Source: Flavobacteriales bacterium
GTDB taxonomy: Bacteria > Bacteroidota > Bacteroidia > Flavobacteriales_D > Sanyastnellaceae
Assembly (NCBI GenBank): GCA_947466425.1
Contig: CANIBZ010000005.1
Span: forward strand, 1-64,000
DNA length: 64,000 bases
Reading direction: 5' to 3'
Position 1 is the stretch's first letter; every line of letters begins with the position of its first letter. Shown here piece by piece: positions 33,889 to 42,654 of the stretch. Below the pieces are notes generated by a model. The model was given only the letters and a program-made list of their open reading frames with translations, ran no database searches and had not been told where the DNA came from. The position numbers were made by a program, and so were the translations under genes.

Positions 33889-34563
33889 CTAAATAAACAT
33901 TGCACACACTGCAATGACTGTCCAAGGTATCGTAACATTATCATATCCTTTTGCTGAAAAGGCCTCAGCCAAGGTACTTGAAACAGCTATTGTGAGAATC
34001 AGCCACACATGAGCAGAAGTCATATTTCCACCTAAAAAATAAACCGATAAAATTGTGCTTACTAATAAAAACGCAAGCGAACCGGCCACACTCTTTTTCT
34101 GATTTCCAACAGCATAAGGCATCCACGGCCAGCGCTTACCAACAAGGGCAGCTGCAGGATCGGCCAATGCCATAATTAAAATTGGCAGATAAAAGAATAA
34201 GTTATTTCCCTTCCAAACACTCGCTAAAAAAGAAGTGTAAACTGCCAAAGGATAACACAAACTTCCAACCGTATCTCTATCTACGGCGTTAATCGATTTC
34301 AAAAAATTGAATTTGATACTTGTTGAAAGTAGAATCGCGAAGGTTGCGCAAAGTACCAATACCCACCAATGATTGCTGAGCATAGCTGGAAATAATAGCG
34401 TCAGAAAACCAGTTCCAACGTGCGACCATTTCCGAGTGAGTTCAGCTTTCACTTTGAACACATGATAGAATAATTCTCCACATGCGAACAAGACTAAAAA
34501 GGAAGTGGAAAGTAAAATTGTATTTGTTAAATCTCTTCCTAAAACAGTATATAGTGTTTCCAT
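33889..34563 (-). CDS. Phytol/dolichol kinase-like (SEC59/DGK1/VTE5) membrane protein
   Basis: 224 residues from the ATG at 34563 and about six membrane helices. The family's RKxxH motif appears as ELTRKWSHVGTG (Arg44, Lys45, His48), and the later ALADPAAALVGKRW and KSVAGSLAFL correspond to the CTP-binding GDPxA...G region. Relatives phosphorylate phytol, dolichol or diacylglycerol with CTP. It starts two bases after the CdsA-like stop and is the last clear member of the seven-gene operon, pointing to prenol or lipid-alcohol phosphorylation. Confidence 0.75.
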   Translation of the reverse strand: METLYTVLGRDLTNTILLSTSFLVLFACGELFYHVFKVKAELTRKWSHVGTGFLTLLFPAMLSNHWWVLVLCATFAILLSTSIKFNFLKSINAVDRDTVGSLCYPLAVYTSFLASVWKGNNLFFYLPILIMALADPAAALVGKRWPWMPYAVGNQKKSVAGSLAFLLVSTILSVYFLGGNMTSAHVWLILTIAVSSTLAEAFSAKGYDNVTIPWTVIAVCAMFI

Positions 34564-34565
34564 AT

Positions 34566-35291
34566 TCAAAAATGAAAAAAGTATGCTACAAAAGACAAGA
34601 CCGTCCAAACCGCAAGAAAGCTATCGAATCGATCAAGCACTCCACCGTGTCCCGGAATGATTTCACTGAAATCTTTCTTACCTGAAAACCGCTTCAACCA
34701 ACTGGCAAGCAAATCTCCGTATAGACCAACCACCGCCATAGCTATTCCAATTAAAAATAAAAATTCTCCTTCCAAAATCCACCATGTTGTGAAACCCATA
34801 ACCAAAGCGCCACCTATGAAACCGCTTCGAGTTTTATTTGGACTCATGCTCGGAGCAAGTGCTTTGCCTTTAACTAATTCTCCGACTGTTTGCGAAAAAC
34901 CATCGAAAACCACAATTAAAAAGAAAACAGGTAAAAGTAATTCTCGCAATTCATAAGAGAGACCAACACCCATTAAAACGAATGAATATACTAAGGCAGA
35001 AATAACTTTCACTCGAGGCAATGCTATTTCTTTCCAACTGGAAAATACTTCGTAGGCACCAATTAAAGTAATGATGCAAATGAGCGCAAAGGCAATGTCT
35101 ACGACATATTTCATGCAAACAACCAAGACACTTACCAACACCAAATAAACAAAAAATTTCAACCACAATCGCTTTCGCGCAGCAGTATCTTTCTTCTTCG
35201 AAATAATATAAAAACCTATTCCCGTAATTAAATAATAAGACAACAGAATAGCTGCAACTTGAAGGAAATCGTATGTTAGAAAAATCTTCAT
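34566..35291 (-). CDS. CdsA-family CTP transferase (phosphatidate cytidylyltransferase-like)
   Basis: 241 residues from the ATG at 35291, with seven to eight membrane helices. The signature is complete: SPNKTRSGFIGG and GDLLASWLKRFSGKKDFSEIIPGHGGVLDRFDS. Members make CDP-diacylglycerol, or CDP-archaeol in the archaeal CarS branch. Whether this is the housekeeping CdsA or a specialised paralogue cannot be seen here. One base separates it from the HMG-CoA reductase stop, so it belongs to the lipid operon. Confidence 0.85.
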   Translation of the reverse strand: MKIFLTYDFLQVAAILLSYYLITGIGFYIISKKKDTAARKRLWLKFFVYLVLVSVLVVCMKYVVDIAFALICIITLIGAYEVFSSWKEIALPRVKVISALVYSFVLMGVGLSYELRELLLPVFFLIVVFDGFSQTVGELVKGKALAPSMSPNKTRSGFIGGALVMGFTTWWILEGEFLFLIGIAMAVVGLYGDLLASWLKRFSGKKDFSEIIPGHGGVLDRFDSFLAVWTVLSFVAYFFHF

Positions 35292-35292
35292 T

Positions 35293-36570
35293 CTATTTCT
35301 TTCTTCCCAACTTTTGGTGCGCACTTGTAAAATGTCCCACAGACAATGCTGCAGCAATACTTAACTCCCCTGATAAAACTACCGCTGCACAAATCTCAGC
35401 AAACTTCCTTGCCTTGTCCGCGCCATAGCAATCCATCATTTCTAAACATTCTCTTTGAGTTGGTAATCCTGTTCCACCGCCCACAGTTCCAACAATTAGA
35501 TTGGGTAAGGTAACAGCTGCGTATAATCCACCATCTTCTGTTACTTCCATGCGCGTAATTCCAACAGAAGCTTCGCTCACACATGCGGCATCTTGACCCG
35601 TTGCGATAAACAAAGCCGCTAATCCATTCGCGTAATGTCCTTGCGCACCAATGCTTCCCGTCTGAATGGCCCCAACCGTTGAGGCCTGCCAATATTCGGC
35701 CATCTTCGCTGGAGTTGTTTTCAATACTTGATTCACAATATCATAACTCATCTCAATTTCAGCGCTCACCTTCTTTCCGCGAACGTGAATGAAAGAAATG
35801 GCGGTTGCTTTTTTATCTCCTGAAAAATTTCCTTCGATATACCAAGTCTTCGGTTGAATTGGTGCGTTTTCAATTAGCCATTTACAAATCGCATCCGTAC
35901 AAATGGTAACCATATTTTGTCCGCTTGCATCACCGGTAAAGTAACCGAACGTAATAATTAATTGATTTCCTTCTATGTTAGAAGAGATATCTTCGAGCTT
36001 CGCAAATCTGCTTGTGGCAGCGACAATCTCATGCATCTTTTCCTCTTGTCCTAAAGCCCAAACCACAAAGGTTCCCAAATCGGCAATATCATTAAAGCGA
36101 AACAGTGGAGCCCTGGAAACGTTTTCAGTTAAGCACACCGAGCGAATTCCTCCGGCCAAAAAAGTCGCTTTTGCCCCACGCTGATAACTAGCAATAAGAG
36201 CTCCTTCACTGGTAGCCAGAGGCACAAAGAAATCACCGTGCGCAGAGGTTCCAACAACACGAACGGGGCCTATTACTCCGGTAGGCACTTGACTCATACC
36301 AATGTAATTTTCAATATTGCCTTCCAACGTTGATAGATTTTCAAACTTAGATTTCCCGCTTAATGTAGCTAACTCAGCACCTGTTATTCGCTTTAAAAAG
36401 TCCAATCGATCTTGCTGAAATTCCGCGCTGAACATTTCACGTGTTGGCATTTGCTTTTGTTCTTTGCTTTCGAACGGACGTTCTTTCAGCTTTTTCAAAA
36501 GCGAATTAATTTCTTGAATTGAATTAATTCTCCAAAGTGCTTTCAAAGATTTTTCGTAAGGATAGGACAT
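35293..36570 (-). CDS. Hydroxymethylglutaryl-CoA reductase
   Basis: 425 residues from the ATG at 36570. Catalytic elements of HMG-CoA reductase are visible: the Glu in LATSEGALIAS, the Lys in SGDKKATAISF, the Asp in TGDASGQNMV, and the late His in SVGHFTSAHQK. The GTVGGGTGLPTQRE loop is also intact. It produces mevalonate for isoprenoids, the route used by many Flavobacteria. No other mevalonate gene is in the window. It is embedded in a seven-gene lipid operon with one-base gaps on both sides. Confidence 0.93.
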   Translation of the reverse strand: MSYPYEKSLKALWRINSIQEINSLLKKLKERPFESKEQKQMPTREMFSAEFQQDRLDFLKRITGAELATLSGKSKFENLSTLEGNIENYIGMSQVPTGVIGPVRVVGTSAHGDFFVPLATSEGALIASYQRGAKATFLAGGIRSVCLTENVSRAPLFRFNDIADLGTFVVWALGQEEKMHEIVAATSRFAKLEDISSNIEGNQLIITFGYFTGDASGQNMVTICTDAICKWLIENAPIQPKTWYIEGNFSGDKKATAISFIHVRGKKVSAEIEMSYDIVNQVLKTTPAKMAEYWQASTVGAIQTGSIGAQGHYANGLAALFIATGQDAACVSEASVGITRMEVTEDGGLYAAVTLPNLIVGTVGGGTGLPTQRECLEMMDCYGADKARKFAEICAAVVLSGELSIAAALSVGHFTSAHQKLGRKK

Positions 36571-36571
36571 A

Positions 36572-37498
36572 TTAAAATTTCTTGTTGGTGTGTTTAGCTG
36601 TTCTGAAAACAAAATCGACTCCGCTCATTGCTTTTGCCTGATTGAACCATTCGCTATAACTAGGTTCCTTCGGCACATTCAAATCTATTTGGTCGAGCCA
36701 ATAGGCAGGCATTCCCGGATAGACATGATGAGCTTCGTGTAAATTGAAATTGAAAAGAAAATATTTCGAGAGGAAAGGCCACGTGTAAAAACTACGCGTG
36801 TACTGAATTTGATCTTTGTATGAAATGGGCTTAACCTCTTCCCCATTCGAAATTGGAATTTCAATGTGGGTGTGTTGCGTGAGAATGATTAATTCCTTCC
36901 AAACTAAACTCAATAAAAAAGCAGGTAAGAAAAAATGCTTCACTTCCCTCCAGAAAAAATAAAATACCACACCGTAAAAAACTGCGTAAACTACCACTGA
37001 AAGAACAGCCAAGCGATACTGATAATCATTCAAGAAGCGACGCATCTTTCCCAAGTTCCAATAGTTGCTGAACATGTAGAACAAATAGAAAATCGGGATG
37101 AATAAAAACCAACTCACATTTGCGACAATGCGCATAACGGGGTTCTTACTTGGCTCAACAGTTTTCTCGGTGGTTGGATCCTTATCGCGCCATCCCGTCC
37201 ACCGATGATGCAAATTGTGCATGTGTTTCCATGAATGAAAAGGAATGAAAGAAAACAATCCGAAAACATTTCCAAACAACGAATTCAATCGATCATTCGC
37301 GAAAAAATTCTGATGTCCGCATTCATGCAAAAGCACAAATGTTTGTGTAAGAAAAAAAGACAAAACTAAAATCCCCAAACCGTAAATCAATCCTGAAAAA
37401 GAAAAGCATAACCACACACCAATTCCTGAAAGTAGAGCTGGAGAAATAAAGAACACCAATGCCCTTAAGTTGTTTGCTTTGTAATCAGAGATTTTCAT
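36572..37498 (-). CDS. Membrane fatty-acid desaturase
   Basis: 308 residues from the ATG at 37498. The three His boxes are HECGH (58-62), HMHNLHH near 92-98, and HEAHH in NLHEAHHVYPG near 255, plus an additional TQHTH. Helices are placed as in the di-iron acyl-lipid desaturase and hydroxylase family. The substrate may be an acyl chain or an isoprenoid ring (carotenoid-type hydroxylases share the fold). It lies one base from HMG-CoA reductase. Confidence 0.88.
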   Translation of the reverse strand: MKISDYKANNLRALVFFISPALLSGIGVWLCFSFSGLIYGLGILVLSFFLTQTFVLLHECGHQNFFANDRLNSLFGNVFGLFSFIPFHSWKHMHNLHHRWTGWRDKDPTTEKTVEPSKNPVMRIVANVSWFLFIPIFYLFYMFSNYWNLGKMRRFLNDYQYRLAVLSVVVYAVFYGVVFYFFWREVKHFFLPAFLLSLVWKELIILTQHTHIEIPISNGEEVKPISYKDQIQYTRSFYTWPFLSKYFLFNFNLHEAHHVYPGMPAYWLDQIDLNVPKEPSYSEWFNQAKAMSGVDFVFRTAKHTNKKF

Positions 37499-37509
37499 TT
37501 CAATCTGAA

Positions 37510-38487
37510 TTAATTCTTCTTTGTGCAAACAACTGTTTGCATGGAAAGGTTAAGGACTCTGCTGAACAGTAAAACCGGAGTAAGTAAAAGCTGGCCAAGA
37601 AAGTAGGGAAAAATAATTTTATCGAGATTCAATCCTTTCCCTAACAACTTGAAATACGCTCCTGTGAAAATATAGAAATAAGCAGGAAATGCGCCGTAAG
37701 GCATATACTTCTCTACCACAAATCCATTTGCTTCAAGCAATTCAATAAACTTCTTCTTTGAAAACAATATAGTGTGCTGTGGCGCTTGAACTCCTGGCCA
37801 TTTCTTGCCATATAATTTGAAAGTGAGCGAATCCAATCGAGGCACTTCAATGATTAGCTTACCATCCTCCTTCAAAACCTTTTTCGCCATTTCCAACGAA
37901 CGAATGGGATCATAATCGTGCTCGAAGAAATGCCACATGGTTACAATGTCCTTTGAATTCTCTTGAATAGGCTGCTCGTAAAACAAACCCTCGTAAAAAT
38001 TAATTTTTTCGAAACCCGGATAGTTTAATCCATCTTTAAAATCGACTCCATGAATACTACAGCCGTGCTTTTTATTCATGTGAAGCAGGAACGTCCCAAC
38101 AGCACAACCAACATCAAGCAATTCAGTCCCCTCATTTACCCGCGCATATTTGCTCACGAGTTTATCTTTTTCTCGATCGTGCTTATTCATGGTCCATTCA
38201 AAAAGCGGAGTTAAAATGCCCCAATTCTTTTTCTTTCTGTGAGCAATGTATTCAGAATCGTAAAACTCTTTTATTCCTTCAATATTCAATCTTGGGTTCT
38301 GGTAAACCAAATCACAAGCGGTGCATTTCACATATAAGAACAGTCCTTCCTTTCCGGTTAGGTCATCTTCACCAATGAGAAATTCGCTGCAATCTTCAGA
38401 ACCGCATGAATAACACTTCACACGTTCGAATTGAAAACGACCAGGATTCTTCAACTCCTGCATTCGTTGAATCGGATCAAATGACAT
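37510..38487 (-). CDS. SAM-dependent methyltransferase with N-terminal zinc ribbon
   Basis: 325 residues. The N-terminus has two CxxC pairs (CYSCGSEDC and CTACDLVYQNPRL) typical of zinc-ribbon class I methyltransferases. The Rossmann core follows with LLDVGCAVGTFL (motif I), DIVTMWHFFEHD and a GKLIIEVP strand. A C-terminal membrane-associated segment (FPYFLGQLLLTPVLLF) suggests a lipid-linked substrate. It overlaps the preceding UbiA-like gene by 11 bases. Confidence 0.85.
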   Translation of the reverse strand: MSFDPIQRMQELKNPGRFQFERVKCYSCGSEDCSEFLIGEDDLTGKEGLFLYVKCTACDLVYQNPRLNIEGIKEFYDSEYIAHRKKKNWGILTPLFEWTMNKHDREKDKLVSKYARVNEGTELLDVGCAVGTFLLHMNKKHGCSIHGVDFKDGLNYPGFEKINFYEGLFYEQPIQENSKDIVTMWHFFEHDYDPIRSLEMAKKVLKEDGKLIIEVPRLDSLTFKLYGKKWPGVQAPQHTILFSKKKFIELLEANGFVVEKYMPYGAFPAYFYIFTGAYFKLLGKGLNLDKIIFPYFLGQLLLTPVLLFSRVLNLSMQTVVCTKKN

Positions 38488-39232
38488 AATTGTTCAAGAT
38501 TAGTTTGAATATTAAAATTAAGAATAACCAAACGATTGGGACTATTTCTTTTTTCGAGTGAACAACAATAAATGCAGCCGCAAGTATCGCCAATCCCGAT
38601 ATTAATGAAACAAGGTTCACACTCGCAAGAAATAGCAAAGCAAGGCAAAAGACAATAATAAAATACAGCACAACCGGAGGTTTGTCTGTTGATTGATTGT
38701 CTAGCAAATCATAGACAACAAAAGATAAAAACAAAGCCGTTGCACTGGTAATTTCGACATATGTTATTTCTTGATTGAAACCGAAACTGAACGACATATA
38801 AAAAAACAGAAAAGGGTACTTAATCAGCGGAAGAACAAATGCCCAGAAGCTCCTGTGCACAAGAGCCTTATACAATACGTGATTCACAATTATAAAATAC
38901 AACCACAAGGCTGCAATAGAAAAATCTGGACTATCATTCAAACAGAAGCCAACGCTCAAAGCCATGCTTAAAACGAGTGGAAGAATGAGTTTCGAGCGAG
39001 ATTCAGATTGCGTATAAATTCGTTCGACATGTTCAACATCGTTTTCCCATTGCATGACATCGTCATACAAACGCATGACCCACAGCATGAAAAACACTTT
39101 AACTATATCAATCAATGAAAGGGGATTGAATGCATGCAACGGAACTGAAAACAGAAATAGGAAAATAGCCAGACTAAAAAACATCAACGTGGAAAATCGT
39201 TGTGCTATATATATGCGAAGCGTTTCAATCAT
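38477..39232 (-). CDS. Divergent UbiA-like prenyltransferase-family membrane protein
   Basis: 251 residues and about eight helices. The first Asp motif of UbiA enzymes appears as MRLYDDVMQWENDVEHVER (Asp57, 58, 65), and a weaker second one appears as YDLLDNQSTD after helix 5. The family transfers a prenyl chain to an aromatic or glycerol phosphate acceptor. The assignment rests on motif spacing and topology, so I hold it with moderate confidence. The ATG at 39232 overlaps the dikinase stop by 8 bases; an upstream TTG is less likely. Confidence 0.6.
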   Translation of the reverse strand: MIETLRIYIAQRFSTLMFFSLAIFLFLFSVPLHAFNPLSLIDIVKVFFMLWVMRLYDDVMQWENDVEHVERIYTQSESRSKLILPLVLSMALSVGFCLNDSPDFSIAALWLYFIIVNHVLYKALVHRSFWAFVLPLIKYPFLFFYMSFSFGFNQEITYVEITSATALFLSFVVYDLLDNQSTDKPPVVLYFIIVFCLALLFLASVNLVSLISGLAILAAAFIVVHSKKEIVPIVWLFLILIFKLILNNYVI

Positions 39233-41669
39233 GAATGACAATGGTGCCTTTGTCGGCGTTCAGTGTTATTAAATCTCCGTCTTTCAATTTTTGAGTTGCG
39301 AGCTCCACTCCTACTATGGCCGGGATTCCAAATTCACGTGAGACAATGGCTCCGTGAGAAAGCATTCCTCCACGCTCTACAATAAGTCCGCTAATTAATG
39401 GAAAAACCGAAACCCATCCTGGATCTGTTTGTCTTGTAACTAAGATATCTCCCATCTCCAATTTATCAGCTTCCATTATTGTTTCTAACACTTTCACTCT
39501 TCCCGTTAATACTCCACCACAAGCACACAATCCTTTCAAATCACTCGTCGAATCAGTACTTACATCCTTTCGTGTGACTTGATCGGGAGAAGTGTACTTT
39601 CCAAATGTCGTATAAAAATCATCTGGATAAATCAATTTCGATTCAACTTCGAAAGCACTCTTCCGCGATTCCAATATTTCACAATTCGAAGCCGAAGCCA
39701 TTTGCGAAGCATCGAGGTGCTCGACAATTTCAGCATAATTCAAAAAGAAAACTTCTCCTTCCACTTTCAAAATGTTTCGTTGAAGAAACGATTGCTCCAC
39801 CTTTTTCAACGCCAACTTAAATCCGAAATACAGCTGTGCTTGTTTTAAGCGAACGCGCTCACGCGAGGAGATTCCTCTGCATGCATTCTTCACCAAAAAA
39901 TTCAATTGCCAAACATGAAGAATTGATTTTAACAGATTCAATTTATTCTTCTTGAAAATATCCTTTTTAAAATCTCGCTTAGCCTGCACAGCTTCAAGGT
40001 ACTTCGTGTGCATGATATCTTCCGGATTCTGATCGGGAAGTTTTTCGTATTGCATTAACAACGCAATGAAGCGTTCGGGTTCTTCTATGTAATTCTTAAA
40101 CGTAAGCATGAGCTCGCCTGAACAGCGGAACCCCCATTTGTTCAGGTATTCATGAATTCCTTTGCAGACAAGACTATCAGCACATTCATCATTCAACCAA
40201 AACCAAAAATCTAGTGCGTTACCTTTTTGAAATTTCGTGTAAACACTTTCATTTTTCCGAATGGAGACAACAAGTTCGTACATGTCAATAACCGGACGAC
40301 TGCTTATTAAATTCGGAATGGCCTGAATGAGTTTATTTTGAATCCCTACTCCACCTTCACCGTAATACTTCACACACAACTTCCCTAACAAACCGTGAAA
40401 GGCCATTGCGAAGAAATCGGCCAACGACGCCCGATACCAGCTGTGCATGCGAATTTCAATAAATCCATGAAATAACTTCCGAATATCGGAATGCGTTATA
40501 GCTCCTTGAACATCGGTCATGTAGTCCGAAACTATTCTTTCAAACTGAGCTACATTCTTTGGAAGCGCCTTGTTTTGCTTCAGCACATTTCGAATAAAAA
40601 GTAATTTCTCTTTTTTGGTTGAAGGAATTTTAGCAACCTTCGCGCCTTCTGCATATCCAACAAAATTATCGAACGACTGAATGAGCGCTTCAGAAAAAGG
40701 CGATGCCGAAAGAATCGCATGAATGCTACTCATGTTGTAATACATATTCCCTCCGAATACACCAATAACATTCGTGAAGGATCCTTCCAGCGAGCGAATT
40801 GATTCTTCCGAAACTTGAAAAAGTCTTGAAAGATTTTTGAAATAATGATAATACGATTGTCGCGCTATGGAATATAACAACGGCGAAATGGCTTCCGGAT
40901 AATTCTCATTCACATTGGTATTCGACCAATACACTTCGGGCTCTTTCCAAGGCGTAGTAATCTTCCGCGCTTGAACAACATAAAACTTCTCATCTTTCAA
41001 CGCCCATTCAATGTCCATGGGCATGCCGTAATGCGCTTCAATCTTCTTTGCTACATGCATACCTTCTTCCAACGCCGGAAGAAATTCTGCATCTGCACTT
41101 CCTTCACCATATCTGTAATGAAAACGCATGGGAGTGACTTCTCCTGAAACCAATTTCTCTCCGTGTCCTTGAACGTATTCCACCAACACTGCGTTGGCTT
41201 CCAAATACGAACGAGTAAAAATAACGCCTGCATAATCGGGATCTATCAATGCTTGCACCACAACGCCCATGCCTTCGAGCCGCTTGTTCGAAATGGCCTC
41301 GTAGGTTTTTACATTCTCCTTCTCATAAGACTTCCAACATTTTTTTATATGTTGAAGAATCTCGTCAATATCGTTTTCACATAAAAAAGAATCGAGTTGT
41401 CCCGCGAACGAATTCTCATCGGAATCCTCGCCAATGGCGGAACTACGGACCATGTAATGCGAAGCGCCGATTCGATTCAATTCAAACTGAACTTCAATCC
41501 TTATCTCTTCTATAGAAAAATTTTCCTTCCCGAAACGCTCAAAAGCTCTAGTTGAAATAACAAAACCATCGGGAATAGGAAATCCCGCTCGCATCATGCG
41601 TGAAAGCTGCGCGCCCTTCCCTCCAAACTCCTCAACTGCAATATTTTTATTTAGCGACAGCAAGTACAT
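39225..41669 (-). CDS. PEP synthase / rifampicin phosphotransferase-like dikinase
   Basis: 814 residues in the three-part order of rifampicin phosphotransferase: an N-terminal PPDK ATP-grasp domain (GGKGAQLSRMMRAGFPIPDGFVIS, MVRSSAIGEDS, DIEWALKD...VVQARKITT), a large middle substrate domain (YWSNTNVNENYPEAISPL, YLNKWGFRCSGE, EVFFLNYAEI), and a C-terminal swivelling phosphohistidine domain (GGMLSHGAIVSREFGIPAIV, His772). Such enzymes split ATP to AMP and phosphate while phosphorylating a substrate. True PPS makes PEP, but the middle domain here is of the RPH type rather than the PEP/pyruvate barrel. It is the first gene of the lipid operon. Confidence 0.82.
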   Translation of the reverse strand: MYLLSLNKNIAVEEFGGKGAQLSRMMRAGFPIPDGFVISTRAFERFGKENFSIEEIRIEVQFELNRIGASHYMVRSSAIGEDSDENSFAGQLDSFLCENDIDEILQHIKKCWKSYEKENVKTYEAISNKRLEGMGVVVQALIDPDYAGVIFTRSYLEANAVLVEYVQGHGEKLVSGEVTPMRFHYRYGEGSADAEFLPALEEGMHVAKKIEAHYGMPMDIEWALKDEKFYVVQARKITTPWKEPEVYWSNTNVNENYPEAISPLLYSIARQSYYHYFKNLSRLFQVSEESIRSLEGSFTNVIGVFGGNMYYNMSSIHAILSASPFSEALIQSFDNFVGYAEGAKVAKIPSTKKEKLLFIRNVLKQNKALPKNVAQFERIVSDYMTDVQGAITHSDIRKLFHGFIEIRMHSWYRASLADFFAMAFHGLLGKLCVKYYGEGGVGIQNKLIQAIPNLISSRPVIDMYELVVSIRKNESVYTKFQKGNALDFWFWLNDECADSLVCKGIHEYLNKWGFRCSGELMLTFKNYIEEPERFIALLMQYEKLPDQNPEDIMHTKYLEAVQAKRDFKKDIFKKNKLNLLKSILHVWQLNFLVKNACRGISSRERVRLKQAQLYFGFKLALKKVEQSFLQRNILKVEGEVFFLNYAEIVEHLDASQMASASNCEILESRKSAFEVESKLIYPDDFYTTFGKYTSPDQVTRKDVSTDSTSDLKGLCACGGVLTGRVKVLETIMEADKLEMGDILVTRQTDPGWVSVFPLISGLIVERGGMLSHGAIVSREFGIPAIVGVELATQKLKDGDLITLNADKGTIVIHD

Positions 41670-41679
41670 AGGTTATTGC

Positions 41680-41687
41680 TATTTTTG
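41680..41687 (+). promoter_or_regulatory. -7 promoter element (TATTTTTG)
   Basis: An exact TAnnTTTG match 34 bases before the desaturase ATG at 41722, in the 52-base divergent gap. A weaker TATTTTAG on the minus strand at about 41694-41701 could serve the lipid operon. Confidence 0.4.
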
Positions 41688-41721: not shown

Positions 41722-42654
41722 ATGATACACACCTTAAAAAGGCCAAACGAAATTCGCGTATTGCTTCCCAAAGACAAATTAAAGTCTTGGCATAATGTAA
41801 GCACCTTGCGAGGCATTTTATCTATTGTTGTTGAATGGGCGGCTATTGTGGGGTCAGCAATCTTGTGTGAAAACTTTTTCTCTTGGCCGTTGTACATTGT
41901 TTTAGTCTTCTTCCTTGGGGCTCGATACTTGGCATTGGGACTTATCATGCACGAATCGGTTCACAATCTAATTTCGCGAAACACGAAGTTGAACGATTTC
42001 CTTGCTGAAGTTTTTTGTGCTTGGCCACTGTTCATTTCTATGCGCTCTTATCGCATTAAACACTTGGCACATCACCGTCATTTGAACACCGACGAAGATC
42101 CGGATTTCGTTGCGAAAGAAGACGATAACTGGAAGTTCCCCATGTCCGCAAAAAAATTCTTCAAAATTATTTTCATTCAGTTTACCGGCATTGGAGTTTT
42201 CGAAACACTGAAGGTGATGTCCGGTAAACAAGTGAAGCGAAAAAAAGAACCGACTCCAGTGAGCTATAACGTTGCGCGGATTTCGTTTTACTTAATTGTT
42301 TTTTCAATCTTCATTTATTTCAATCACGGCATGTGGTTGCTTCTGTATTGGATTATTCCATTTGCTACTTGGACACAAGTAGCAAATCGATTGCGACGTA
42401 TAGCGGAGCATTCGAGCATTGAAGGGTACGACCATTCGATGCAAACCCGAACAACGACGCACAATTGGTTTGTTCGTCTATTCTTCTCCCCGAAGAACAT
42501 CAATCTTCACAACGAGCATCACCTCTACCCGGGTGTACCATGTTACAATTTACCTAAATTGCACAAGGAGCTCATGAATAACGAAGATATTCGCAACAGT
42601 TTGTACGTTGCCAAATCCTACAAAGACGTTTACAACGACTGTATAAAGAATTAA
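41722..42654 (+). CDS. Second membrane fatty-acid desaturase
   Basis: 310 residues. The His boxes are HESVH, HLAHHRH and HNEHH in NLHNEHHLYPG, with four to six helices. It is a different subgroup from the operon desaturase (it has DEDPDF after the second box). It is transcribed divergently from the dikinase, with a promoter in the shared gap, so it is probably co-regulated with the lipid operon. The substrate is unknown. Confidence 0.88.
   Translation: MIHTLKRPNEIRVLLPKDKLKSWHNVSTLRGILSIVVEWAAIVGSAILCENFFSWPLYIVLVFFLGARYLALGLIMHESVHNLISRNTKLNDFLAEVFCAWPLFISMRSYRIKHLAHHRHLNTDEDPDFVAKEDDNWKFPMSAKKFFKIIFIQFTGIGVFETLKVMSGKQVKRKKEPTPVSYNVARISFYLIVFSIFIYFNHGMWLLLYWIIPFATWTQVANRLRRIAEHSSIEGYDHSMQTRTTTHNWFVRLFFSPKNINLHNEHHLYPGVPCYNLPKLHKELMNNEDIRNSLYVAKSYKDVYNDCIKN

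Follow-up and report, generated by a model that had tools for sequence, protein, structure and literature searches.

Which product an HMG-CoA reductase (HMGR) makes when its gene stands in a lipid-type operon is the question raised by a locus of Flavobacteriales bacterium (GenBank assembly GCA_947466425.1). The locus lies in the window, the 64,000-nucleotide stretch of contig CANIBZ010000005.1 analysed here (positions 1 to 64,000), where seven minus-strand genes in one run at 33889-41669 encode, in order, a PPDK/RPH-like dikinase, a UbiA-like membrane protein, an S-adenosylmethionine (SAM) methyltransferase, a membrane di-iron fatty-acid desaturase/hydroxylase family protein, an HMGR-like protein, a CdsA-like cytidylyltransferase and a DOLK/VTE5-like kinase. 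There is about an even chance that the operon specifies an accessory pathway leading to a polar membrane lipid and operating through a repurposed HMGR-like enzyme, a kinase and CTP activation. The evidence comes from the gene set and its conservation, the genome context, the loss of residues that hold the HMG carboxylate, and patterns of gene fusion and displacement. The original prediction had described seven genes on the minus strand that overlap or lie 1-11 bases apart, and the coordinates and starts agree: every start is ATG, and the junctions from the dikinase to the DOLK-like gene measure, in order, -8, -11, +11, +1, +1 and +2 bases. The identities it gave stand by Pfam for the dikinase, methyltransferase, desaturase, HMGR and CdsA; that of the DOLK-like kinase is supported by homologues, conserved motifs and a predicted model, and the UbiA assignment is weak; the UbiA-like and DOLK-like window proteins gave zero Pfam matches.

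The HMGR-like enzyme and its genome context

The HMGR-like protein (35293..36570, minus strand) is class I-like, matches the Pfam family HMG-CoA_red at 2.9e-117 and resembles the class I archaeal enzyme 6hr7 (45% class, E 6e-84). The catalytic Glu, Lys, Asp and His are kept. When the protein is aligned with structurally characterized HMGRs from human, plant and archaea, Glu falls at human position S684 and Ala at K735. Ser684 and Lys735 are both present in the human, plant and archaeal enzymes and, in published human structures, are the residues that hold the HMG carboxylate. Among 113 distinct cluster or paralogue HMGRs, E559, K691 and D767 (human numbering) are invariant. None has Ser at position 684, which is Glu in 99, Asp in 12 and Ala in 2, and none has Lys at position 735. 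This pattern suggests that thioester reduction has been retained and HMG recognition has not, and the sequences indicate that a large, recognizable HMGR subfamily has a substrate other than HMG-CoA. The cluster enzymes share with class I HMGRs (human 1dq8, archaeal 6hr7) the fold family, the catalytic Glu/Lys/Asp and presumably the NAD(P)H-dependent conversion of thioester to alcohol; they differ in their lost HMG-carboxylate residues, in standing outside the mevalonate pathway and in having alcohol kinases and CDP-lipid enzymes as fusion or linkage partners.

Genome context bears on the same question. The window genome, a metagenome-assembled genome (MAG) that is 86.5% complete, contains DXR, a marker of the methylerythritol phosphate (MEP) pathway, and at this completeness yielded no match to HMG-CoA synthase (HMGS) or mevalonate-diphosphate decarboxylase (MVD); the operon HMGR is its sole PF00368 match. 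Strong MVD matches occur in seven of 45 HMGR carriers. DXR is present in 37 of the 38 MVD-negative carriers (window genome counted), in which PF08540 detected no HMGS and MVD gave a few marginal matches (E 3e-4 to 9e-4). PF08540 is insensitive: four of the seven genomes with MVD escaped it, and MVD is accordingly the marker to rely on. All seven MVD-positive carriers possess a second, divergent HMGR, which adjoins MVD in two; this marks out the cluster HMGR as a dedicated paralogue. The earlier view that the operon HMGR supplies mevalonate must be given up in light of these data: DXR is present, MVD and HMGS are undetected, the substrate pocket is altered and MVD-positive relatives carry another HMGR. 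A variant in which the enzyme still makes mevalonate, from HMG-CoA released by leucine breakdown, with mevalonate itself as the building block, would fit the kept catalytic residues and the close similarity to class I HMGR (6hr7). It is nonetheless improbable, given that equivalents of Ser684 and Lys735 are missing in 113/113 sequences and that the partner kinases and cytidylyltransferases are of membrane-embedded lipid types.

Stand-alone HMGR-like genes were also observed. In Chitinophaga-like Bacteroidia (L088-L098; L-numbers denote loci of relatives whose neighbourhoods were fetched) they mostly encode proteins of ~520 aa that form their own clade, with Ser684 replaced by Glu in most and no UbiA or dikinase neighbour seen. 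Those of Vibrio/Photobacterium (L191, L194, L198, L199, L202, L204) carry Asp at 684 and stand without operon partners.

Operon architectures and their spread

A scan of species genomes returned at least 583 stretches matching HMGR. Architectures were counted at 76 loci with a called HMGR gene, drawn from the best 80 of these matches; since the 80 are those most similar to the query, the counts describe its subfamily, not all bacterial HMGRs. UbiA and dikinase are both present at 48 of the 76 loci and the full seven-gene set at 33. UbiA and dikinase genes are adjacent at 46 loci (median gap -1 base) and HMGR and UbiA genes at 41 (median gap -4 bases). The conserved core is HMGR-UbiA-dikinase, to which DUF3419, a prenol-type kinase, GNAT and an AMP ligase are usually added. 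In type A, the commonest architecture, HMGR, UbiA, dikinase, DUF3419 (BtaA family), DOLK-like kinase, GNAT and AMP ligase occur together, sometimes with SRPBCC and often with CdsA and a CDP-alcohol phosphotransferase. The window operon represents type B. Type C comprises an HMGR-APH kinase fusion, a CarS-like protein, dikinase, UbiA-like protein, methyltransferase and desaturase, and sometimes PlsC. The AMP ligase of one type A operon (L188) is nearest to the PRK09274 and OleC beta-lactone synthetase models, not to ordinary fatty-acyl-CoA ligases. Type A operons also recall synthesis of betaine lipid (diacylglyceryltrimethylhomoserine, DGTS) by BtaA in carrying DUF3419 (E 5e-71 in Methylomonas); unlike that system, BtaB is not established, DUF3419 is embedded with HMGR, UbiA and dikinase, and the window operon lacks it.

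Judged by record titles, HMGR, UbiA and dikinase occur together in, among others, Bacteroidota, Verrucomicrobiota, Planctomycetota, Pseudomonadota, a deltaproteobacterium, Chloroflexota, Deinococcota and Fibrobacterota. The operon family spans eight or more phyla, with the caveat that single phylum assignments may be wrong because many carriers are MAGs. Within the window's own family, HMGR was found in seven of 114 genomes, and in none of the eight from the same genus. The operon is a patchy accessory trait, probably moved horizontally.

This distribution decides against a grouping of housekeeping genes by chance. Each gene family is common on its own, as that explanation would have it, but the order recurs at 41-46 of the 76 named HMGR loci, where the median gaps range from -4 to -1 bases, HMGR is absent from 8/8 same-genus and 107/114 family genomes, and the window genome has a separate housekeeping CdsA. 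Chance grouping is thus exceedingly improbable and is ruled out by the conserved order and patchy occurrence. A single lipid operon had been predicted, with comparison of gene neighbourhoods proposed as the check. The comparison supports one co-inherited lipid-type operon: gene order is conserved in relatives and across phyla, and separate copies do not mark the genes as ordinary housekeeping ones, the operon CdsA being an extra paralogue beside the housekeeping enzyme. No description of such an HMGR-UbiA-dikinase operon was found in the open-access literature, in keeping with the earlier statement that no named system with this exact set was known. The ebo cluster is a different UbiA operon (PMC9235831), and one paper mentions an HMGR neighbourhood in passing only (PMC12419801). 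The operon family is apparently undescribed.

A proposed route from lipid alcohol to CDP-lipid

The DOLK/VTE5-like protein (33889..34563, minus strand) is a putative CTP-dependent lipid-alcohol kinase on the evidence of homologues, conserved motifs and predicted fold. It is 50% identical to cluster DOLKs, which show 20 invariant columns in a 28-row alignment, and one homologue (L067) matches PF01148 at E 0.0046. Its AlphaFold model (pLDDT 93.3) is closest among PDB folds to CDP-diacylglycerol (CDP-DAG) synthase (4q2e/4q2g, Z 9.0); a PDB search with the DOLK profile, as with the DUF3419 protein, returned no sequence relative. The adjacent CdsA-like CTP:lipid-phosphate cytidylyltransferase (34566..35291, minus strand) matches CTP_transf_1 (PF01148) at 6e-29 and contains PGHGGVLDRFDS, conforming to the family signature PGHGG..DR.DS. 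Its best relatives are cluster CdsA genes. The housekeeping CdsA lies on another contig, and cluster-free genomes of the same genus hold the housekeeping CdsA alone.

Fusions and reduced clusters connect these activities to HMGR. The type C HMGR-APH fusion has intact kinase motifs (HND..PRN, YDWE) and adjoins a CarS-like protein, and L184 combines HMGR, a CDP-alcohol phosphotransferase and a CdsA-DOLK fusion. In mini-modules at six named loci and L070, UbiA and dikinase are missing and HMGR is accompanied by two or three of DOLK, CdsA/CarS and CDP-alcohol phosphotransferase.

By its closest relatives, the window operon is a chimera of types A and C. Its dikinase is 56% identical to a type C homologue (L033) and 29% to type A. 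The methyltransferase (37510..38487, minus strand; Methyltransf_23 in Pfam, with an N-terminal Cys4, Zn-ribbon-like stretch) is 71-74% identical to type C counterparts, making it the most conserved gene of this operon type. The desaturase/hydroxylase family protein (36572..37498, minus strand; PF00487, 3.7e-33) and a second one encoded beside the operon are matched well in type C only; the first has relatives in all type C clusters. HMGR (67%), DOLK and CdsA are type A by best relatives; in the HMGR tree the window protein falls within type A as sister to L067 (100/100), apart from the APH fusions, which group in a clade of their own (100/100). From this chimerism, the HMGR-APH plus CarS-like module and the HMGR plus DOLK plus CdsA-like module appear interchangeable, and both appear to lead from alcohol through phosphate to CDP-lipid.

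The proposed pathway would begin with the HMGR-like enzyme, which is predicted to reduce a CoA thioester other than HMG-CoA to a primary alcohol in a four-electron reaction using two NAD(P)H. The DOLK-like kinase would phosphorylate the resulting lipid alcohol, and the CdsA-like enzyme would use CTP to form a CDP-lipid, to which a head group could then be attached. A second module may consist of dikinase and UbiA-like protein, probably serving to phosphorylate and alkylate a partner moiety, and the methyltransferase and two di-iron enzymes would modify the chains. In this scheme the acyl substrate, the order of the steps and the lipid product are predicted. A broader reading, in which a neofunctionalised HMGR yields a lipid alcohol that passes via kinase and cytidylyltransferase to a head group, as a widespread and undescribed route to phospholipid-like lipids independent of glycerol acyltransferase, is put forward only tentatively.

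Several points weigh against this pathway. H866 varies (Asp, Glu, Gln) in many HMGR homologues, the argument for pocket replacement comes from alignment as opposed to a liganded structure, and Glu at 684 could contact an HMG-like acid through a different one of its polar groups. The alcohol may also not be lipophilic, since small molecules are frequent substrates of APH kinases. Furthermore, the window operon lacks a CDP-alcohol phosphotransferase, what the dikinase and UbiA-like protein do is guesswork, and the window protein is weakly assigned to UbiA.

The pairing of a DOLK/VTE5-type kinase with UbiA in most operons would also suit an allylic alkenyl donor, made by HMGR-like reduction of an enoyl- or prenoyl-CoA to an allylic alcohol, activated by DOLK and a second step, and transferred by the UbiA-like protein. 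The second step might be sought in the C-terminal domain of DOLK-like proteins from other phyla, which has a very weak match to DUF92/TIGR00297 (VTE6 family), but with E 0.002-0.01 this match does not reach the cut-off. In the window and many relatives, moreover, DOLK is paired with CdsA and CDP-alcohol phosphotransferase, pointing to a CDP-lipid, and the mini-modules lack UbiA; an allylic donor is therefore unlikely. Phytol salvage (VTE5, VTE6, UbiA prenyltransferase) similarly combines a CTP-type alcohol kinase with a UbiA-like enzyme, whereas the clusters would draw their alcohol from the HMGR-like reductase and contain CdsA/CDP-alcohol phosphotransferase and no clear second kinase. The extra DOLK membrane domain is usual outside Bacteroidota and spans ~220 aa (e.g. 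in the kinase at L188:15923-17272). The idea that these 440-aa proteins are DOLK-CdsA fusions was discarded, as their C-terminal half lacks the CdsA signature, L184 excepted. At L036 (3484-6345), a 953-aa class III aminotransferase fusion is flanked by genes for an ICMT/PEMT-like methyltransferase and a CarS-like protein, adjoining two dikinases and UbiA, in the place held elsewhere by HMGR-APH. It may be a replacement of HMGR-APH; its C-terminal part gave no match to the APH profile.

Were an HMGR-initiated lipid pathway confirmed, it would add a new activity to a reductase family that is among the best studied, and perhaps reveal a new class of membrane lipid in bacteria. HMGR is the statin target, and HMGRs annotated in MEP-using bacteria are easily mistaken for mevalonate enzymes; pathway annotation would be corrected in many genomes.

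The dikinase, the UbiA-like protein and ether lipids

The dikinase (39225..41669, minus strand; 814 aa) contains PPDK_N (ATP-grasp) and PEP-utilizers (swivelling phospho-histidine) domains with the phospho-histidine motif LSHGAI, as in RPH/PEP-synthase-like proteins, and has no C-terminal PEP/pyruvate barrel. It shares the ATP-grasp and phospho-histidine architecture of rifampin phosphotransferase and the PEP-synthase-like ligases PigC and RedH, but pairs with a membrane UbiA-like protein and differs in acceptor. That partner (38477..39232, minus strand; 251 aa) is the least certain assignment in the operon and is supported indirectly. The first Asp-rich motif-like stretch (RLYDDVMQWENDV) was seen in it and the second was not, and profile comparison with type A UbiA gives E 3e-4 over 65 columns. 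Type A homologues match PF01040 above cut-off (E 4e-9 and 1e-8), and their profile has DGGGP synthase 6m31 as best PDB match (E 4e-9). Structure prediction, with comparison against DGGGP synthase as had been suggested, gave a model of low confidence: Foldseek places UbiA/DGGGP synthases first, and the match to 6m31 has Z 8.1 over 217 residues, but unrelated folds score alike.

The original prediction saw in these genes the logic of archaeal ether-lipid synthesis, with HMGR giving mevalonate, the UbiA-like protein prenylating glycerol phosphate and the CdsA/CarS-like enzyme activating the product. The type A UbiA profile lends this some substance, as do the CarS-like proteins of type C clusters and the archaeal-type lipid genes published for bacteria of the Fibrobacteres-Chlorobi-Bacteroidetes (FCB) group (PMC7852524). 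GGGP synthase (GGGPS), noted as missing, is indeed not in the cluster, but a PcrB homologue is encoded on another contig of the window genome, one of 39 GGGPS-positive genomes among the 45 HMGR carriers. GGGPS is, however, present in most Bacteroidia tested and absent from six carriers, three of which have type C fusions beside a dikinase/UbiA cluster; these six rule it out as an essential cluster partner. Beyond HMGR no mevalonate pathway was detected in the window genome, the HMGR pocket is altered and the mini-modules lack UbiA. The ether-lipid explanation is thereby weakened and, as a whole, quite unlikely. Isoprenoid chains could still derive from MEP-made prenyl diphosphates, and ether or prenyl chemistry at the UbiA step is possible; the cluster does not track GGGPS-dependent archaeal synthesis. 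The archaeal/FCB pathway (GGGPS, DGGGPS, CarS) and the clusters have in common the UbiA superfamily, CdsA/CarS-type CDP-lipid synthases and CDP-alcohol phosphotransferases. The clusters differ in lacking GGGPS, in being held by carriers that do not require it, and in a phosphate that would be generated by the HMGR-like enzyme and lipid-alcohol kinase.

Two neighbouring genes had been missed in the original list of seven. An alpha-L-fucosidase (PF01120; 32470-33876, minus strand) begins 12 bases past the DOLK-like stop on the same strand and is possibly co-transcribed; none was seen in related clusters. Upstream, the 52-base divergent intergenic region contains a Bacteroidota -7-like element (TATTTTTG, 41680..41687, plus strand), a consensus match commonly met by chance; the scan for Bacteroidota promoter motifs gave fewer matches than expected by chance and so carries no weight. 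Beyond this region lies the divergent gene for the second desaturase/hydroxylase family protein (41722..42654, plus strand), which belongs to the cluster type because its nearest relatives, at 57-66% identity, adjoin type C clusters (L034, L035, L099).

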